Shown here: one piece after another, positions 16,295 through 48,900 of the stretch
Layout of the letters: each line of letters opens with the position of its first letter
How positions within the stretch are numbered: position 1 is the first letter of the stretch
Assembly (NCBI GenBank): GCA_009773355.1
Contig: WRPG01000019.1
Coordinates: 1-64,000, forward strand
Direction: 5' to 3'
DNA: 64,000 nt
Origin: Limisphaerales bacterium
Lineage (GTDB): Bacteria > Verrucomicrobiota > Verrucomicrobiia > Limisphaerales > SXTU01
The notes under the pieces: model-generated
Databases searched by the model: none
What the model saw: only the letters and a program-made list of their open reading frames with translations
What the model was told of the DNA's origin: nothing
Program-made: the position numbers and the translations under genes

Positions 16295-16301
16295 GGTGGG
16301 G

Positions 16302-16444
16302 AAGCTCCAAATCCCAAGCTCCAAATCCCAAAGTAGCTCCAAACATCAAGCTCCAATCGAAGCCGGGCGCACTGGGTGAAGCTGTCAGATTGGGCATTGG
16401 AGCTTGGGATTTCTTTGGGATTTGGAGCTTGGATTTTGGAGCTT
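16302..16444. repeat. Word-type inverted repeat between kdsA and kdsC
   Basis: Left region 16302-16356 is a string of CTCCAAATCCCAAG words. Right region 16396-16444 holds the complementary string (GGAGCTTGGGATTT). The loop (about 40 nt) is unrelated. It fills the whole gap in the operon, and its right edge overlaps the kdsA stop codon by two bases. Same family as 39604-39779. Confidence 0.85.
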
Positions 16445-19821: not shown

Positions 19822-20778
19822 TCATTCCTTCGTCCGCAGCGTGCGGACGTAGTGAAACAGATACTGCTGCGCATACCCGGCGTTCGGCCCGAAGTGCGAG
19901 TTGGCAAATTTCTCCAGCCGCTTCGCCGACGGCCGGCGGCGCGGGAAATACAACTCCTTCAACGCGCGCCGCACCCAGACATCCACCGGGAAGGCGTCCT
20001 GCTTGCCGTAGGCGAAGAGCAGCACGCAGTCGGCAATCTTCCGGCCCACGCCATGCAAACTCATAAGCGCGGCCCGAGCTTCGCTTGTCGTGAGGGCGTG
20101 CAGCCGAGCCAAATCCAGCTCGCCGCTCGCGACGGCCTGTGCGGCCGCCCGCACGTAGGGCGCGCGGAAGCCCATCTTGCAGGCGCGCAGCTCGGCCTCA
20201 GAACACGCCGCCAGCCGCGCGGCGGTGGGGAAGGCTCGTCCCGCGTAGGAGACGACGTGAGGAGTCTCTGACTTTCTCTCCGTATTCCCCGTTCCGCGTT
20301 CCGCGTTTGAAGTGAGACTCCTCACGTCGTCTCCTACGAGGATTGGCTGCCCGAACCGCTCGCAGAGCAGCGCGATGATTTGCTGGATTTGCACAATCTG
20401 CTTCGTGGACGAGCAGATGAAGGTGACGAGCGTTTCCCACGGTTCCTGTCGCAGCAGCCGCAGCCCGCGACACGCGGCCACGGACGCGCGCATCGGCTCG
20501 TCGTCGGGAAAGGTCGCGACCACGGCGGTAAGGTTCACATCGAGCTGGAGGAACTCGCGGAGCCACTGCCAATCCGTCTGCGGCACGGCGGTCTCGGCTC
20601 GAATGCTGTCGCCTGTCTGCTTCAAGCACACCCAGCGTCCGGCCACGATGCCCTTCCACGCCTCGTCCACCGGCCGCCAGCGAAACGCTTGTCCGGACGC
20701 AAGCGTCGCGGCGAGGTCATAGTCGCGGACGGGGAAGGAAGCCTTGGTGGCCCGCGAATCACGCGAATGAACGCGCAT
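19822..20778 (-). CDS. 8-oxoguanine DNA glycosylase (OGG1-type) with in-frame repeat
   Basis: Base-excision glycosylase/AP lyase. The helix-hairpin-helix reads LHGVGRKIADCVLLFAYGK followed by PVDVWVRR, keeping the catalytic Lys and the Asp of the OGG family. The OGG N-domain appears as LAATLASGQAFRW. Two repeat-derived parts are seen: the first 14 residues (MRVHSRDSRATKAS) come from the outer arm of the nested repeat at 20750-20978, and about 31 residues (VGDDVRSL ... ETPHVVSY) between FGQPIL and AGRAFPTA come from the element at 20245-20337. The start is uncertain; a longer frame reaches 20961 through the repeats. Confidence 0.87.
   Translation of the reverse strand: MRVHSRDSRATKASFPVRDYDLAATLASGQAFRWRPVDEAWKGIVAGRWVCLKQTGDSIRAETAVPQTDWQWLREFLQLDVNLTAVVATFPDDEPMRASVAACRGLRLLRQEPWETLVTFICSSTKQIVQIQQIIALLCERFGQPILVGDDVRSLTSNAERGTGNTERKSETPHVVSYAGRAFPTAARLAACSEAELRACKMGFRAPYVRAAAQAVASGELDLARLHALTTSEARAALMSLHGVGRKIADCVLLFAYGKQDAFPVDVWVRRALKELYFPRRRPSAKRLEKFANSHFGPNAGYAQQYLFHYVRTLRTKE
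20245..20337. repeat. In-frame GTAG REP doublet inside the glycosylase gene
   Basis: Perfect arms (25 of 25, counting one flanking base on each side) starting GTAGGAGACGACGTGAGG face each other. The loop holds a second, word-type string (TTCCGCGTTCCGCGTT). The GTAG-to-CTAC span is 93 bases, exactly 31 codons. The coding strand reads it as VGDDVRSL on one arm and ETPHVVSY on the other. Confidence 0.93.
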
Positions 20779-20978
20779 GGGGATTGGAGCGCGGACGCCC
20801 ACGTCCGCAGCCCGTGCCGGCGATTTGCAATCGCCGTCCGAAGCTTCCGTTCCCTCCGTGCCGTGGAAGTGCTCTGCGCCCTCGGCGGCGACTACAAGTC
20901 GCCGGCACGGGGATGCGGCGGACGTGGGCGTCCGCGCTCCTTGGCTCTTATTCGCGTCCATTCGCGTGTTTCGCGGGC
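20750..20978. repeat. Three nested inverted repeats
   Basis: Outer arms 20750-20775 and 20953-20978 (GCCCGCGAATCACGCGAATG, 24 of 26). Middle arms from 20786 and ending at 20940 (GGAGCGCGGACGCCCACG, GGAG head with GCGGAC/GTCCGC stem). Inner arms 20811-20836 and 20886-20911 (CCCGTGCCGGCGATTTGC, 23 of 26, with a CGGCGA/TCGCCG stem). Each pair brackets the next with little between, so they are nested like boxes. The locus fills the gap between the glycosylase and the glycosyltransferase fragment. Confidence 0.92.
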
Positions 20979-20979
20979 A

Positions 20980-37954: not shown

Positions 37955-37983
37955 CTTGTGGAAGTGGTGGAGCGACAGAAGTT

Positions 37984-38089
37984 GCCCGCGAAACACGCGA
38001 ATTGACGCGAATGGCTCCAGGCCTTGCGCAATTGCCAGCCGTTCAAGCTCCAGGTCTTTGATTCGCGTTCATTCGCGTGATTCGCGGGC
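37984..38089. repeat. Inverted repeat (GCCCGCGAAT family)
   Basis: Arms 37984-38012 and 38061-38089 match at 26 of 29 positions and are the same family as the outer arms of the nested locus at 20750. They occupy most of the 253-bp gap between carB and the glycine-zipper gene. Confidence 0.9.
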
Positions 38090-38207
38090 CGTATCAGGTT
38101 TTCCCGCTGCCCGCATCAAGTCATTTGATTTCCCCTCCCTTGGGGCCGATGATACGTATGCACACGAATACGACGGGAACGTCGAAGTCGAAACGAAAGA
38201 CACGAAC

Positions 38208-38933: not shown

Positions 38934-39566
38934 ATGAAACTGAACCTTGACCGTTGGAGTGTGTCCCTGAGCTGCGTTGCTGCTGCTGGCCTGCTGGCCG
39001 GTTGCGCGAGCGGCGTTCAAAACCCCCGTGGCGTCTCCGTCACCGAGATGAAGGCCGACGAGCGCGGCTTCGTCGCCGGCACCGGCGTCGAGTCGCAAGA
39101 CCTCGTGCGCGTGGCCGACAAAATGGCGCGCGGCATCCTCGCCGTCCCGCAGGTCGCCCGCGCGCAGGGCACCCCGCGCGTCGTGCTCGATCCCGTGGTG
39201 AACGAGACCCGTTTCCCCATCAGCAAGGACATCTTCCTCACCCGCATTCGTGCGCAGCTCAACTCCCAGGCCACCGGCAAGGTGCTCTTCCTTGCCCGCG
39301 ACAAGATGACGGCGCTCGAACGCGAGCGCGACCTCAAGCGCTCCGGCCAGGTGACGACCGGCAGCGACCCGAACACCGTCGAGTTCAAGGGCGCGGACTT
39401 CTTCCTCACCGGCAAGCTGTCCAGCCTCACAACGCGCTCCTCGAAGGGCGTGAGCGACTATATCCTCTACACCTTCCAGCTCATTGACGCGCGCACCAGC
39501 GACATCGTGTGGGAAGGCTTCGAGGAAATTAAGAAGCAAGGTCTGGAAGACGCGGTGTATCGGTAG
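38934..39566 (+). CDS. lpoB: LpoB-like outer-membrane lipoprotein
   Basis: 210 aa. Lipobox LLAGCAS near residue 23. The body contains RVADKMARGILAVP, KVLFLARDKMTALERERDL and FLTGKLSSLTTRSSKG, matching the LpoB/YcfM fold that in E. coli reaches from the outer membrane to activate penicillin-binding protein 1b. Here it is followed by several further lipoprotein genes including a YcfL-like one; ycfL is lpoB's neighbour in E. coli too, which supports the call. Confidence 0.85.
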   Translation: MKLNLDRWSVSLSCVAAAGLLAGCASGVQNPRGVSVTEMKADERGFVAGTGVESQDLVRVADKMARGILAVPQVARAQGTPRVVLDPVVNETRFPISKDIFLTRIRAQLNSQATGKVLFLARDKMTALERERDLKRSGQVTTGSDPNTVEFKGADFFLTGKLSSLTTRSSKGVSDYILYTFQLIDARTSDIVWEGFEEIKKQGLEDAVYR

Positions 39567-39571
39567 GCTGC

Positions 39572-39779
39572 GGAGCGCGGACGCCCATGTCCGCCGCCGT
39601 GAAACTCCAAATCCCAAGCGCCAAGTTCCAAAGAAGCGCCAAACTCCAACCTCCAAAGAACTCGGTCCAACTCGCCATTCCGGTGAACGCTTCCGCCCAA
39701 AGCAACCCGTCCGCCCGCCGTTCCTTGGGATTTGGAACTTGGAGCTTCTTTGGGGTTTGGAGCTTGGGTTTTGGAGCTT
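39572..39779. repeat. REP half arm plus word-type inverted repeat encoding a signal peptide
   Basis: Bases 39572-39594 are a solo GGAG-type arm (GGAGCGCGGACGCCCATG). The left string 39604-39660 (ACTCCAAATCCCAAGCG words) is complementary to the right string 39721-39779 (CTTGGGATTTGGAACTTGG words). It is the same family as 16302-16444. The right string is translated as LGFGTWSFFGVWSLGFGA, immediately before the lipobox LFLFTGC of the next gene. Confidence 0.88.
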
Positions 39780-40888
39780 TGTTTCTGTTCACCGGCTGCG
39801 CCACGTATTCTGAAGGCTCAACGGCTCAAACTGGTTCCGCTTCCAACGGTGCCGCCGCTGCATCTCGCCGCGACCAAGTCCTCTGGAGCTACCGCAACGC
39901 CGCGCTCGCCATGCGCGCGGGCCGCTTCGACCAGGCCAAGACCGAGCTTGAGGACGCGCTCGCCCACCTCGGCGGCATTTACGGGCCCGACAAAGCCGCC
40001 GCCAGCGCCCGCCGCCTATTCAACGAGGAGGCCAGGAAGATGTTCATCGGCGAGCCTTACGAGCGCGTGATGGCCTACTTCTATCGCGGCATCCTCTACT
40101 GGATGGACGGCGAGCCCGACAACGCCCGTGCCTGCTTCCGCACCGGCCAGCTCCTCGACAGCGACGCCGAGAACAAAACCTACGCCGGCGACTGGGCGCT
40201 GCTCGATTACCTCGACGGTCTCGCCTCCGTGAAGCTCGCCGCCGATGGCTCCGACGCGCTCGCCCGTGCACAGTCGCACACCCGCGCCACCCCGCTCCCG
40301 CCCTACGCCCCGCGCGCGAACGTCCTGTTCTTCGTCGAGTTCGGCAACGGCCCGTTGAAATACGCCACGGGGGCGTTCCGTGAGCAGCTCCGCTTCAGCA
40401 AAGGCACCTCCAACGTGAAGTCCGCCGCCATCAAAGTCGCCGGCCAAACCCTCGCCGCACCCAGCTACGACGACCTCTACTTCCAAGCCACCACGCGCGG
40501 CGGCCGCGTGATGGACCACATCCTCGCCGGCAAGGCGCAGTTCAAGGCCGGCTCCGACGCCGTCGGCGACGCCGCCATCATCAGCGGAGCCGTGCTCGCC
40601 GCCACGCAGCAAGGCCGGCGCAACGCCGGCGACGAAGTCGGCGCGGGCCTGCTGCTCTTCGGCCTCGCCACCAAGCTCATCTCCGGTGCGACCAACCCGA
40701 CCGCCGACACCCGCTGCTGGGAGAACCTCCCCGGCCACCTCAGCTTCGCCGCCGCCGAGCTCCCGCCCGGCCAGCACACCGCCACCGTCGAATTCCTCAA
40801 CGCCGCCGGCACGCCGCACCGCGTGAAGACCGCCACCTTCACCGTGCAACCCGGCCGCGACACCGTCGTCTTCCTCAGCGACCACTGA
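39683..40888 (+). CDS. Lipoprotein of unknown function with a repeat-encoded signal peptide
   Basis: About 401 aa (433 if started at the ATG at 39587). After a lipobox LFTGCATYSEG, the mature protein has TPR-like helices (MRAGRFDQAKTELEDALAHL, GILYWMDGEPDNARACFR) and a C-terminal beta domain (LSFAAAELPPGQHTATVEF). It resembles COG3014-type lipoproteins. The whole hydrophobic core of the signal peptide is encoded by a word-type repeat. The start is unsettled: the GTG at 39683 gives a long but workable n-region with an Arg pair, while the TTG within SARRS-LGFG is another choice. Part of the lpoB cluster. Confidence 0.8.
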   Translation: MNASAQSNPSARRSLGFGTWSFFGVWSLGFGALFLFTGCATYSEGSTAQTGSASNGAAAASRRDQVLWSYRNAALAMRAGRFDQAKTELEDALAHLGGIYGPDKAAASARRLFNEEARKMFIGEPYERVMAYFYRGILYWMDGEPDNARACFRTGQLLDSDAENKTYAGDWALLDYLDGLASVKLAADGSDALARAQSHTRATPLPPYAPRANVLFFVEFGNGPLKYATGAFREQLRFSKGTSNVKSAAIKVAGQTLAAPSYDDLYFQATTRGGRVMDHILAGKAQFKAGSDAVGDAAIISGAVLAATQQGRRNAGDEVGAGLLLFGLATKLISGATNPTADTRCWENLPGHLSFAAAELPPGQHTATVEFLNAAGTPHRVKTATFTVQPGRDTVVFLSDH

Positions 40889-40892
40889 CCAT

Positions 40893-41137
40893 GAGCCACA
40901 AAGAGGCACAAAAGGCGCAAAGAGCAGAGGCGTTTCCGAACGCCCACCCGCGTCTTGGACTGCGGCGGCAAGCGGAGCGCGACGCCGCTTTTCCGTCCTG
41001 CGGAGCGGGCTTAATCTCGTCAACGTGTTCCGCTTCGCGGGAAACCAAAGCGCCGTCGCCGCTGCGCTCTGCCAGCGCACTCCAAGACGCTACCGTCCCT
41101 CCCGTTCCTTTTGTGCTTTCTGTGCCTCTTTGTGGCT
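40893..41137. repeat. Nested inverted repeats in a 270-bp gap
   Basis: Outer arms: AGCCACAAAGAGGCACAAAA at 40893 and its complement ending at 41137 (with a 9-base insertion in one arm). Inner arms: 40951-40991 and 41047-41089 (CGTCTTGGACTGCGGCGGCA and imperfect complement). The gap between the two lipoprotein genes consists almost entirely of this composite. Confidence 0.87.
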
Positions 41138-41158
41138 AAATCAAAACCATCCATCCCT

Positions 41159-42966: not shown

Positions 42967-42972
42967 AACCCT

Positions 42973-43213
42973 CGTAGGAGACGACGTGAGGAGTCTCACG
43001 CCAACTCTGAACGAGACCCTGCGGAATCGCCAGTTGGCCGCTGCGTTCTTCCCTCCCTCTCCCTACATCGGATGAGGGGAGAGGGCCGGGGTGAGGGGTT
43101 TCATTCGGACACCGCTGGCGTTCGCACCCCTCATCCGGCCTGCGGCCACCTTCTCCCCTCGCTTCGCGAAGGGAGAAGGAAAACAGTCAGAGACTCCTCA
43201 CGTCGTCTCCTAC
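42973..43213. repeat. GTAG REP doublet with a second inverted repeat in its loop
   Basis: Arms 42973-42997 and 43190-43213 match over 24 bases and are identical to the arms at 20245 and 48259 (GTAGGAGACGACGTGAGG). The 190-bp loop contains another pair (GGAGAGGGCCGGGGTGAGGG near 43079-43098 and its imperfect complement at about 43125-43158). The doublet lies between converging genes. The TAG in its right head is the stop codon of the ceramidase-like gene. Confidence 0.93.
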
Positions 43214-44577
43214 TTGGACAACAACCGGTTCAACTCCCGCACCTGGCTGATGATGCGCTCCTCGACCGACTCCGCCCACGGGCCGGGATGCGTGGTGCTG
43301 AAGCGCATTGCGCCGCCGCCCTCGTAGCCGCCTTCCTTGAGCACGCGCGCGCTCGGGATGTAGCCCATCACGTCGTTCGAGTAGCCCGCGACCCACACGG
43401 CGGGGCCGGCCAGTTCCCTCTTCAAGCGCAGCGCGTAATCCACCACCACCTCGCCGCCGAGCGCGACCATCGTCACCGCGTCGCCGAAGCGCACGACCTG
43501 CACGGGATACGGATACTGCGTCGGCAGCTTCTCGCCCTTCTCCAGCCGCTCCAGCATCCGCTTCGCGTGCGACACCTCGTATCGGTCCTTCGACGCGAGC
43601 CGCGCCTTGAACTCGTCGCGTGTCGGAGCAGGCGCGTAATCCAACTGAATCTCCGCATACGAGCTGCGGACCGGGCCGTTCACTGCCTTGAGCGTGGTCG
43701 CCAGCGCGGCTTCCACCGCCGTCGCGAGCGCTCGGCCATGCTTCTGCGCCAGTTCCACCGTGCCGCGCGGGTAAGGATTCTGGTCGCCGCCGCAGCCGAG
43801 CATGAAGAGCGCGACCGCGCCGGGGTGGTCGGCCTCGAAGTATTGCTGCGCGTAGCCCGCGTAGTCGCCGCTGAACTGGTAGAGCGCGAGCGTCGTGTTG
43901 TGGCACGCGTAGCCAAAGAGCACCGCGCGCAGCTTGCCGTCAGCGCCCTCGACGCGCAGCACCGGCACCGATTGGTCCACGGGGCCGTCGGGATAGGGGC
44001 TGTTTTGGTAGCCGGTCTTCGTCGGCAGGCGACGGTTCATCGCGAAGCCACAGCGCGCGAAGCTGTAGGCCAGCCGGGCCGGCGCGCGGCTTTCGAGCGC
44101 CTTGCTGATGAGCGTAAACAACTTCTCCTCCAGCTCCCGCCCGTAGCTGTCGCCGAGCGAACTCGGCTTGAACTCCCCGTCATCCGCCGGAGCGCGTCCG
44201 ACGCGGAACTCCGGCCCGCTGTGCGTGTGCGAGGCGTTCAGCAGCAGCCCGCCCGGCGGCAACTGCCACGCCTTCTCCGCCCGCGCCTCCAGCGACTTGC
44301 GCAGCGTGCGCGGGATGCCGATAAGGTCGAGTGTGATGAAGATCATCCGCCCGCCGCGCTCGTCCTCCAGCGCGAGCGCCTTGGCAAAGAGGTCCAAGGT
44401 CTTCCCCTGGCTGACGTTCGTGCGGCTGGCGTAGCCCGCCATCCACATCGCCTGCTCTGGCGTGATGACGGCGGTGGCGACCCCGGCCTTCCACACGGCG
44501 GGCGAAGGCGCGGGCGCGGCGAAGGAAACGCCAGCGGTGAGCACCGAGAGCAGGCAGAGAAGGAGGCGAATGTTCAT
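43210..44577 (-). CDS. Secreted neutral/alkaline ceramidase-type protein
   Basis: 455 aa with a signal peptide (LLLCLLSVLTAGVSFAAPA). Matches the N-terminal domain family of neutral/alkaline non-lysosomal ceramidases: AGVATAVITP near the start, LALEDERGGRMIFITLDLIG, the metal-site LLNASHTHSGPEF and FGYACHNTTL. In PVC bacteria such proteins often act on unknown amide or ester substrates; ceramide is not implied. The start at MNIRLLLC is preferred over a longer frame. The stop codon TAG is inside a REP arm. Confidence 0.85.
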   Translation of the reverse strand: MNIRLLLCLLSVLTAGVSFAAPAPSPAVWKAGVATAVITPEQAMWMAGYASRTNVSQGKTLDLFAKALALEDERGGRMIFITLDLIGIPRTLRKSLEARAEKAWQLPPGGLLLNASHTHSGPEFRVGRAPADDGEFKPSSLGDSYGRELEEKLFTLISKALESRAPARLAYSFARCGFAMNRRLPTKTGYQNSPYPDGPVDQSVPVLRVEGADGKLRAVLFGYACHNTTLALYQFSGDYAGYAQQYFEADHPGAVALFMLGCGGDQNPYPRGTVELAQKHGRALATAVEAALATTLKAVNGPVRSSYAEIQLDYAPAPTRDEFKARLASKDRYEVSHAKRMLERLEKGEKLPTQYPYPVQVVRFGDAVTMVALGGEVVVDYALRLKRELAGPAVWVAGYSNDVMGYIPSARVLKEGGYEGGGAMRFSTTHPGPWAESVEERIISQVRELNRLLSK

Positions 44578-45935: not shown

Positions 45936-48900
45936 ATGCGCTTCCGCTGCCTGTTTCCCCTCGCCGCCGCTTTGCTGGCTGGCGCGTTGCCGCTTTCCGC
46001 CGCTGAACCCGCCAACAGCGCGACTCCCATAGCCAAGGCCAAGGACGACAAGACCCCCGCCGGCGTCTCCGCGACCGACTCGCCCGAGACCGCCCGCAAG
46101 CGTCTCGTCGTCGCGCCCGGCCTGAAGGTGGACCTCTGGGCCGCCGAGCCGCTCATCGAGAACGTCGTCAACTTCAGCTTCGACGAGCAGGGCCGTGCTT
46201 ACGTGGTCGAGACCGGCCGCCGCCGCACGAGCGTCTTCGACATCCGCAGCTATCGCGACTGGGTGGATGCCGACCTCTCCTTCCGCACGCCGTGGGACCG
46301 CGCCGCGTTCCTCAAGCAAAACGTCTCGCAGGACAACGCCGCCTTCATGCGCCAGATGAGCACCGCCAAGACCGGCGGCTTCGCGGACTTCAACAAAGAT
46401 GGCCGCCTCGACTGGCGCGACCTGGAAGTCGAGTCCGAGCGCATCAAGCTCGTGTGGGATTCGACCGGCAGCGGCATCGCCGACAAATCCGCCGTCTTCG
46501 CCGACGGCTTCAACACCAGCATCAGCGGAGTGGCGGCCGGCGTGCTCGCGCGGCGCGGAGAAGTCTATTTCACAAGCATCCCCGACGTTTGGCGATTTAA
46601 GGATTACGTTTTACGTTTTACGAACGGCCAGCCCGCGCTGTCGCTTCCCTTCACCCCCGCGACCAGCACCCGCCTCCACACCGGCTTCGGTGTCCACATT
46701 GCCTACGGCGGCCACGACATGCACGGCCTCAAGTTCGGCCCCGACGGCAAGCTCTACTGGACCATCGCCGACCGCGGGGCCGCGCTCACCAACCTCTCGC
46801 GCACGCTCAACCCCGACCTCGATTACCTGCTGAAATTCCTCCCCGACACCGGCGCGGTCTTCCGCAGCAACCCGGACGGCAGCGAACTGGAAGTCGTCGC
46901 CATCGGCCTGCGCAACCCGCAGGAGCTGGCCTTCGACGACTTCGGCAACCTCTTCACCGCCGACAACAACGCCGACGGCGGCGACAAGGCCCGCTGGGTC
47001 CACATCGTCGAGGGCGCGGACTACGGCTGGCGCTACGGCTGGCAGCACCTGCCCAAGCTCGGCGCGTGGAACGCCGAGATGCTCTGGGGCCTCGCGCCGT
47101 CGAACACCGCGCTCTCCTACCCGCCGCCCGTCGCGCACATCGGCCACGGCCCGGCGGGCATCGCGCACTATCCCGGCACCGGCCTGCCGGACACCTTCCG
47201 CGACTGCTTCTTCTACGCGGACTTCCCCGGCGGCATCCGCTGGTTCCGCCTGGAGCCGAGCGGCGCGAGCTTCAAGGTCGCGAACGCCGGCAAATGGCTC
47301 GAAAGCAACTCGCCCGACGAACGCGAGGGCAAGCTGCTCTGGAACCTCTACCCCACGGACATCGAGTTCGGCCCCGACGGCGGCGCGTATGTGCTCGACT
47401 GGGTGGCGGGCTGGGAGAAGACCGGCAAAGGCCGCATCTGGCGCGTGCATGACCCGGCGGTGGATGCGGGGAAGGAAGTGCAGGAGGTAAAGGCATTGTT
47501 GGCGGCGGATTTCGACAAGATGCCCGCCGGGCAACTGGCTCAGTTGCTCCGTCACAAGGATGGCCGGGTGCGTAACGCTGCTCAGGAGGGAATGCAGCAT
47601 CCGCGATTCGACCAAGGTCGCACGGTCGTAGTTGGAGGACAGAATGTTGGTGCTTTGAGTCCCACGCAAAGCCTGCTCTCACTTGCCATGCAAGGAACGG
47701 ACCCGCTTGGTCGCTCCCAAGCAGTCTGGACTTGCCGAAACCTTGCTGTGCGGGGTGTGAGTTGGGCTGAATCCATGCTTCGCTTGGCCTTGTCCGGTTC
47801 TCGCAGCCCAGAACTGCGGGCGGAAATCGCGCGCTCTCTCGGTGACATTGGTAAAACGCATCAGGACTCTGCGACACTCCAAAGCCTGCTTGGTGGCGCG
47901 TCCCCTCGTGTCCGTTTCTTGGCAGCCCAAAGCCTCGGCAAACTTGGCAAGAAGGAAGCCGTTCAGCCACTGCTCAATTTGCTGCGCACCAACGCCGACC
48001 AGGACACCACTATCCGTCACGCCGCCGTCCACGCCCTCGTCCGCATCGGCGACACGGACGCGCTGCTCGCCGCTGCGAAGGACAGTTCCGCCAGCGTGCG
48101 CCTCGGCGCGTGCCTTGCCTTGCGCCGGCTGATGCACCCCGACATCGCGCAGTTCCTCGATGACCCCGACCCGCGCATCGTCCTCGAAGCCGCCCGCGCC
48201 ATCGCCGACCTCCCCATCGAACCCGCGCTGCCGAAGCTCGCCGCCCTCCTCGACCCCAGTAGGAGACGACGTGAGGAGTCTCTAACTAATTCCCCAGACT
48301 CCAGACCCAAGACCCAAAACCTTAGTCAGAGACTCCTCACGTCGTCTCCTACGGAGGGGTTTGTCCTCCGCCGTGCGCTCAACGCCCACTTCCGCCTCGG
48401 CCAGCCCACGAACGCTCTCGCCCTCGCCGCCTTCGCCGCGCGCAACGAAGCCCTGGAAGCCCTCCGCGTCGAAGCCCTCGAAATGCTTGCCGACTGGCCG
48501 CAGCCCAGCAGCCGCGACAAAATCACCGGCCTCTGGCGTCCGCTCGCCCCGCGCGATGCCAAACCCGCCGCCAGCGCACTCGGCCCGCTTGCACCGGCGC
48601 TGCTTGCCGCTAAGGACGCGACCGTTGCCACCGCTGCGCTCGCCGCCATTGAGAAACTCGCGCTCACCGACCTCGCGCCTTCACTTCTCGCTTTGGTGAA
48701 GAATGTTTCCACGCCTGCCGAAGTCCGCGCCGCCGCCTTGCGCACGCTCGGCCATTCCGTATTCCGCACTCCGCATTCCGCATTGTTCGAGACCGCGTTG
48801 AAGGCCGCCCTCGCGGACGCTTCCGAAACGCTCCGCAAGGAAGCCTCCCGCCTCAGCGCCGCCGGTGGTGGAGTTGACGCCATTGCCCGCCTCGCCGCCA

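Follow-up and report, generated by a model that had tools for sequence, protein, structure and literature searches.

The analysed window, a stretch of 64,000 nucleotides comprising positions 1 to 64,000 of contig WRPG01000019.1 of an uncultured Limisphaerales bacterium (assembly GCA_009773355.1), carries a gene for a TPR lipoprotein in which a complete inverted repeat, both arms and the loop between them, falls inside the first 71 residues of the open reading frame. The features of this N-terminus, the gene upstream of it and a sister copy of the repeat elsewhere in the window are as follows.

38934-39566, + strand: upstream LpoB-like lipoprotein gene, with its stop codon TAG 23 nt before ATG 39587
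39587-40888, + strand: TPR lipoprotein gene, 433 aa plus stop, with a predicted signal peptide encoded by the repeat; TPR_2 match at the cut-off; orthologues in 10 of 10 congeners
39587-39589, + strand: candidate start, the first in-frame ATG, 15 nt 5' of the left arm
39599-39601, + strand: alternative start GTG, abutting the left arm and giving MKLQIPSAK..., by analogy with the placement of ATG or GTG in other cases
39602-39656, - strand: left arm of the word-type inverted repeat; its + strand reading is the Lys-rich n-region KLQIPSAKFQRSAKLQPPK
39657-39724, + strand: loop, unique to this copy and in frame, holding GTG 39683 and the residues ARR before the core
39725-39779, + strand: right arm, in frame A, encoding LGFGTWSFFGVWSLGFGA, the h-region
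39779-39799, + strand: native remainder LFLFTGC with the lipobox, Cys71 at 39797-39799; TGCAT(Y/D)S in all congeners
16302-16444: sister element between two genes, left arm 16302-16356 (16301-16356 in the alignment with the window gene's left arm), right arm 16390-16444

The N-terminus of the ORF (39587-40885, + strand) reads MSAAVKLQIPSAKFQRSAKLQPPKNSVQLAIPVNASAQSNPSARRS-LGFGTWSFFGVWSLGFGA-LFLFTGCATYSEGS, and the left arm, taken as an outward arm on the - strand, fits the arm template at 34 of 34 positions. The first-pass annotation had assigned the hydrophobic core to the right arm of an inverted repeat with an intergenic sister copy, and both statements were confirmed: the arm is in frame, and the sister element lies between two genes. 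It had also placed the core directly before the lipobox LFLFTGC; the two do adjoin, although LFLFTGC, which is followed by the conserved ATYS, is native sequence and not repeat, and it is the whole element, not the right arm alone, that lies in the ORF. All three in-frame starts (ATG 39587, GTG 39599 and GTG 39683, the last inside the loop) have the right arm as their core. As just LFLFTGC separates the arm from the lipobox Cys, a downstream start would supply no other signal peptide; a single TTG lies between the right arm and the Cys, where it would leave a leader of six residues, and the repeat arm is thus the core, if the lipoprotein is exported. A conventional signal peptide from an alternative start, which the first-pass annotation had raised as a counter-argument, was found from no other start in this ORF, and the next ATG lies within the conserved mature part.

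The resulting leader has the parts expected of a Sec lipoprotein signal. Lys and Arg residues in the left arm, and ARR right before the core, provide a basic n-region; the 18-aa right arm contains no D, E, K or R and forms a core comparable to that of the orthologues, with a hydrophobicity of 1.94 versus 1.79 and 1.95 when gauged by 12-residue Kyte-Doolittle means; and the lipobox LFLFTGC corresponds to STGC, ATGC or LTGC in congeners. Two features count against the signal peptide reading, namely the less usual Phe at lipobox position -3 and the length of the n-region, which is 46 residues from ATG 39587 and 14 from GTG 39683.

The window and sister copies are 85% identical in the right arm and 84% in the left. 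Blastn found 152 matches to the element in the genome, and a pattern scan of its 6.16 Mb recovered 134 arms versus 3 for the reversed control; the element is far beyond chance. Sixty complete pairs could be reconstructed, invariably in the order left arm to right arm, with loops of 11-171 nt that are unique to each copy. Each arm consists of seven variable 7-nt words, built of a constant TTGG plus three free bases and split by TT(C/G)T after the third word. In the outward direction the peptide is LxxGxWSFFGxWSLGFGA in frame A, LGAWSxxxLWSxxxGIWSF in frame B and a more acidic one in frame C. Translated along the element, the left arm looks like a Lys-rich n-region and the right arm like a hydrophobic core. 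Of 196 genomes of the order, 32 contain the exact core pattern, with the reversed control at zero in each genome listed; the genomes used are draft MAGs.

The window holds further repeats. A second inverted-repeat family (GTAGGAGACGACGTGAGGAGTCTC) is present at 20241-20341, 42967-43004, 43178-43217 and 48254-48357 in near-identical copies of several orientations, and 30-nt repeats of the GCGAATCACGCGAATGAACGCGCAT type lie at 20749-20778, 20950-20979, 37983-38012 and 38061-38090, as pairs that are 97% complementary and about 17 kb apart. Another word repeat (CACAAAGAGGCACAAAAGGCGCAAAGAG ... CTTTCTGTGCCTCTTTGTGGC) occupies 40893-41145, directly 5' of the next lipoprotein ORF (41160). A search of the window against Rfam gave no match at the gathering score.

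Orthologues of the lipoprotein were found in all 10 genomes of the same genus, at 74-88% identity. The N-termini of all 10 are unrelated to that of the window protein, TGCAT(Y/D)S is kept in 10 of 10, and the Trp-rich core is present in 0 of 10. The native signal in its shortest form, found in G002, G008 and G009, is MSNVPPTPLAKWLAVASLVLSTGC. In G007 and G010 the n-region of the gene contains a different inverted repeat (CACCCGGCTTCAGCCGGGTG with CCGTTTCAACGGTTTC, at L062 1488-1643 and L069 2948-3113), and in G035, from another family, the gene carries a repeat of AACATTC/GAATGTT words encoding WMLSVECWMLNVLLLTSLLFTGC. The 5' DNA of this lipoprotein gene thus appears to be a recurrent site for repeats. 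The proposal that repeat DNA, and not an inherited peptide, was the source of the core gains support here, as the orthologues do not share the peptide. A de novo origin of the sorting signal, as originally worded, does not describe the case: the gene already encoded a lipoprotein, and the front of an existing signal was replaced with retention of the native c-region and lipobox. What had been called de novo origin is recurrent takeover of existing signal peptides.

A search of the proteome for similar cores, as the first-pass annotation had proposed, yielded about fourteen further repeat-encoded candidate signals, so that about 15 genes for exported proteins of this genome contain the element within their coding sequence, immediately ahead of the mature part. 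This list is based in part on reading N-termini, and Pfam matches back 13 of the 14 genes scanned. The further genes, with contig and element start, are given below.

C121:25119, sulfatase, reading ...FGARCLVLLWSLGFGIWSFAAQA-APRPPNFIVILADD
C62:64981, DctP, reading ...LGVWSLRFLWSLGFGIWSFFACSALAAA-PVKIRLA
C145:4249, DUF7133 protein, reading ...LGTWSLVFLWSLGFGFWSFARA-ATT
C59:150659, PSCyt1/2 protein
C143:8855, outer membrane efflux protein (TolC)
C57:9983, DUF3999 protein
C161:9321 and C26:2799, TPR proteins
C3:4197, PDZ protease
C56:2609, squalene-hopene-cyclase-like protein
C159:30571, DUF362 protein
C27:168843, phosphodiesterase, with a full native core still behind the element
C149:9532, protein without a Pfam match, with orthologues in three congeners
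C1:2716, sulfatase-like protein, assigned by motif and outside the 14 genes scanned

In the DctP, sulfatase, DUF7133, PSCyt and TolC genes the first mature residues follow directly after the arm, and in C27, where the native core is left behind the element, the repeat may be a mere extension. Open frames that run through arms and lack Pfam matches (C139, C50, C51, C104, C52, C2, C56 on the minus strand and C62 on the plus strand) are apparent shadow frames and were not counted.

Comparison with relatives revealed both plain leaders and other repeats at the same place. The sulfatase orthologue of G007 (89% identical) has a plain leader starting MPTLHRMALFLFATLCVLCGQSTAAG; the C161 TPR protein has plain-leader orthologues in three congeners, that of G005 beginning MKLRFLLILCGFLTLTAHARLAP and those of G004 and G010 being similar; and the C149 orthologue in G007 starts MSALSLLLFIPFVPA. 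The element itself is present in the same gene in congeners for C161 (G006), DctP (G003), DUF3999 (G005), and PSCyt and C26 (G004). Other word lexicons occupy this position elsewhere: DctP of G004, G005 and G010 carries GTCCAAA/TTTGGAC words encoding WTLDLGLWTLLLLLGTT, and C161 of G002 carries TTGGTCATT words encoding VIGHWSFIGPWSLAIGH. The plain-looking G007 sulfatase leader (L212) is itself partly encoded by CTTTGTG-type words; such words are common to it and to the window repeat region at 40893-41145. Cases of repeat-encoded signals are also present in other families.

The position of the elements relative to start codons follows a pattern. In nine cases the TGA of the upstream gene overlaps the start codon, forming ATGA (in C56, GTGA), and the element follows immediately; such overlapping stop-start pairs place the element in codons 2-4 of the downstream gene. 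Across congeners, the DNA around DctP is conserved through the start codon and all that lies directly behind it differs, which indicates that the element lands behind the stop codon of the upstream gene; empty sites were aligned for the window gene and DctP only. A further 42 ORFs of this genome have an element just upstream of their ATG. A heuristic flags five of these as bearing a signal, of which by reading about two (C125 and C27:102247) truly do so, the others being cytosolic, multi-membrane or spurious. Elements before the start codon serve any gene, and elements behind it only exported genes, a pattern that is the expectation from tolerance alone. The outward arm often ends 0-40 nt before a start codon, as at 16302-16356 before a KdsC-like gene on the - strand, and its repeated GGAG words could act as Shine-Dalgarno sites.

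The first-pass annotation had described the repeat as a ready-made export signal. It does supply the core, but non-coding copies read in the same frames average 1.5 acidic residues in frame A and 2.1 in frame B, which coding copies have mostly shed; the sister arm at 16390-16444 would contribute two Asp in the frame of the window gene. As the coding arms for the first version of this test had been picked partly by eye, it was repeated and superseded using an automated criterion combined with Pfam. The criterion, which is blind to hydrophobicity, requires an ATG between 30 nt upstream and 15 nt downstream of the element start and a frame that stays open through the element and for 100 codons on. 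It selects 30 ORFs in eight genomes, 15 Pfam-positive, all of which read as exported types of protein, and 15 Pfam-negative. Pfam-positive arms contain 0.4 acidic residues per arm versus 1.6 in Pfam-negative arms (Mann-Whitney p=2e-4), use frame C in 0/15 versus 6/15 cases (Fisher p=0.017) and have a best hydrophobic window of 2.05 versus 1.48 (p=0.0014). The test is conservative, as at least three Pfam-negative ORFs also resemble exported proteins. An excess of open frames after an ATG that precedes an element was considered and rejected: before elements, frames are open after 30 ATG versus 27 AGT and 14 GAT control triplets, so openness alone proves nothing and was left out as evidence. Judged from the sequences, the loss of acidic residues shows selection acting on the putative signal peptide after insertion.

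In five genes the element signal is common to species, with no acidic residue gained. The shared arms of these five pairs differ at 21 of 214.5 non-synonymous and 11 of 55.5 synonymous sites (pN 0.098, pS 0.198). For the same arms (L223/L208, L241/L007, L287/L146, L289/L199 and L293/L193) the synonymous divergence of 0.20 is mostly lower than that of the mature parts, at 0.24-0.55, hinting at a constraint at the level of DNA or RNA or at exchange between copies.

This low divergence is one of several observations that fit a different explanation, in which selection favours the element for the RNA or DNA hairpin that it forms at operon junctions, through REP-like mRNA protection, decoupling or translation control, the open frame is tolerated and the signal role is a by-product. 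As RNA, the window copy has a strong predicted fold (-99.8 kcal/mol, z -5.5), coding and non-coding copies fold alike, and elements lie at gene junctions regardless of the gene. However, the arms do not covary: in the 60 pairs, facing arms are identical at 42.6 of 55 positions versus 44.2 of 55 in random re-pairings, with 0 of 3000 shuffles as low, and native arm pairs fold worse than swapped pairs. As facing arms match less than re-paired arms, pairing is not preserved at the level of single words, and upkeep of the hairpin by compensating words was rejected. A hairpin function also leaves unexplained both the loss of acidic codons and the avoidance of frame C in real genes. We consider it an unlikely account of the coding copies, and a hairpin role would in any case be compatible with an additional signal function. 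Perfect palindromy seems to be avoided, and the low complementarity of facing arms looks as if perfect palindromes had been removed or words exchanged against the partner.

Elements close before an ATG, as in the 42 ORFs, would also suit a model in which translation begins downstream, leaving the element as 5' untranslated DNA, and export of the proteins has been lost. This is very improbable given that LFLFTGC alone stands between the arm and the Cys of the window lipoprotein, with the next ATG in its conserved mature part, that mature residues directly follow the arm in the DctP, sulfatase, DUF7133, PSCyt and TolC genes, that lipobox and cleavage motifs are conserved, and that it is these very arms that have lost acidic residues. 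Shuffling of a protein module, with the signal peptide copied from gene to gene and intergenic copies as its decayed remains, would account for one peptide type before unrelated mature proteins, but deserves almost no credence when intergenic copies are complete inverted pairs of the same arm structure that exceed the coding copies in number by about 3:1, loops bear no relation to one another, the same DNA is read in two different frames and other word lexicons do likewise.

Taken together, our analysis indicates that takeover of the signal peptide by a repeat, with the left arm as n-region, the right arm as core and the lipobox native, has probably occurred in the window lipoprotein and recurred in about 15 genes and in relatives. 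The case is built from features read in the DNA: the repeat family, its in-frame position, the absence of another signal in the ORF, the unrelated signals of orthologues, the acid loss and some shared inheritance. From these we infer export, lipidation, processing and the manner in which the element spreads. Elements would land at gene junctions, necessarily within codons 2-4 of the downstream gene at ATGA/GTGA overlaps, and only the signal peptide would tolerate the insertion, as it is loose in sequence and cleaved off. In the lipoprotein gene, the element would have inserted in frame at the 5' end, a place taken by a plain signal peptide in congeners, with its left arm (KLQIPSAKFQRSAKLQPPK) becoming the basic n-region, its right arm (LGFGTWSFFGVWSLGFGA) the hydrophobic core and native LFLFTGC remaining as the lipobox. 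The native core would then decay or be deleted, and selection would strip acidic words from the arm. The nascent chain would enter the Sec pathway, receive its lipid on Cys71 and be cleaved by signal peptidase II, as other lipoproteins are.

This suggests that export signals are borrowed repeatedly from "junk" repeats. A broader and more tentative proposal, which we think somewhat less than evenly likely, is that across this order of Limisphaerales/Pedosphaera-like Verrucomicrobiota several word-repeat families serve as a continuing source of signal peptides, inserting behind start codons, preferably at stop-start overlaps, taking over n- and h-regions, being purged of acidic residues and replacing one another. 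If true, capture of repeats would account for most of the turnover of targeting signals in the exported proteome, in place of point mutation of inherited peptides. Signal peptides are loose in sequence, and their origin and replacement can seldom be observed. In about fifteen genes of this genome the source DNA can still be identified, intergenic copies form a built-in control and congeners show the replaced signals, making it testable how easily arbitrary DNA encoding hydrophobic peptides becomes an export signal and which changes selection makes first. For annotation, the N-termini of many exported proteins in the phylum may be repeat DNA, where start-calling and repeat masking would err.

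Rickettsia palindromic elements (RPEs) occur at many positions within proteins and are not known to favour signal peptides. They are the classic in-frame palindromes (Ogata 2000, as described in PMC2229807), and by that description they resemble the window family in being inverted repeats, about 100-150 bp long, that occupy both intergenic sites and in-frame sites in unrelated protein genes. The window family likewise combines intergenic copies with coding copies compatible with protein function. Unlike RPEs, compared by description, its coding copies follow the start codon at the very beginning of the protein and have arms of variable words and unique loops. Bacterial MITEs and REP sequences (PMC10969869) are also short, repeated, non-autonomous inverted-repeat DNA at gene junctions, but variable 7-nt words, a constant TTGG skeleton and a loop unique to each copy set the window family apart. 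Recruitment of non-genic DNA whose base composition gives hydrophobic peptides is a further likeness, to the system of PMC7005711; there, whole new small yeast proteins arise from T-rich DNA, whereas here a dispersed repeat supplies the leader of existing conserved genes. In a partial literature search we found no report of this system of repeat-derived signal peptides in Verrucomicrobiota, and no precedent for its scale, the split of n- and h-regions between arms, the evidence of tuning or the turnover of lexicons. The kind of event is already known from RPEs (PMC2229807) and from the Yersinia RU-2 (YPAL) repeat in YPO1552 (Delihas 2007, PMC2759123; also PMC2229807), a single-gene precedent; a repeat-derived signal is therefore not unique to the window gene. 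As in YPO1552, the window family puts copies of a dispersed repeat in frame at the N-termini of conserved proteins, and relatives have unrelated signal peptides at the same place. RU-2 partly encodes one small hypothetical exported protein of 144 aa, described without a test of selection; the window family, by comparison, extends to about 15 conserved exported proteins and to relatives, supplies both n- and h-region, and displays acid loss and inheritance across species.
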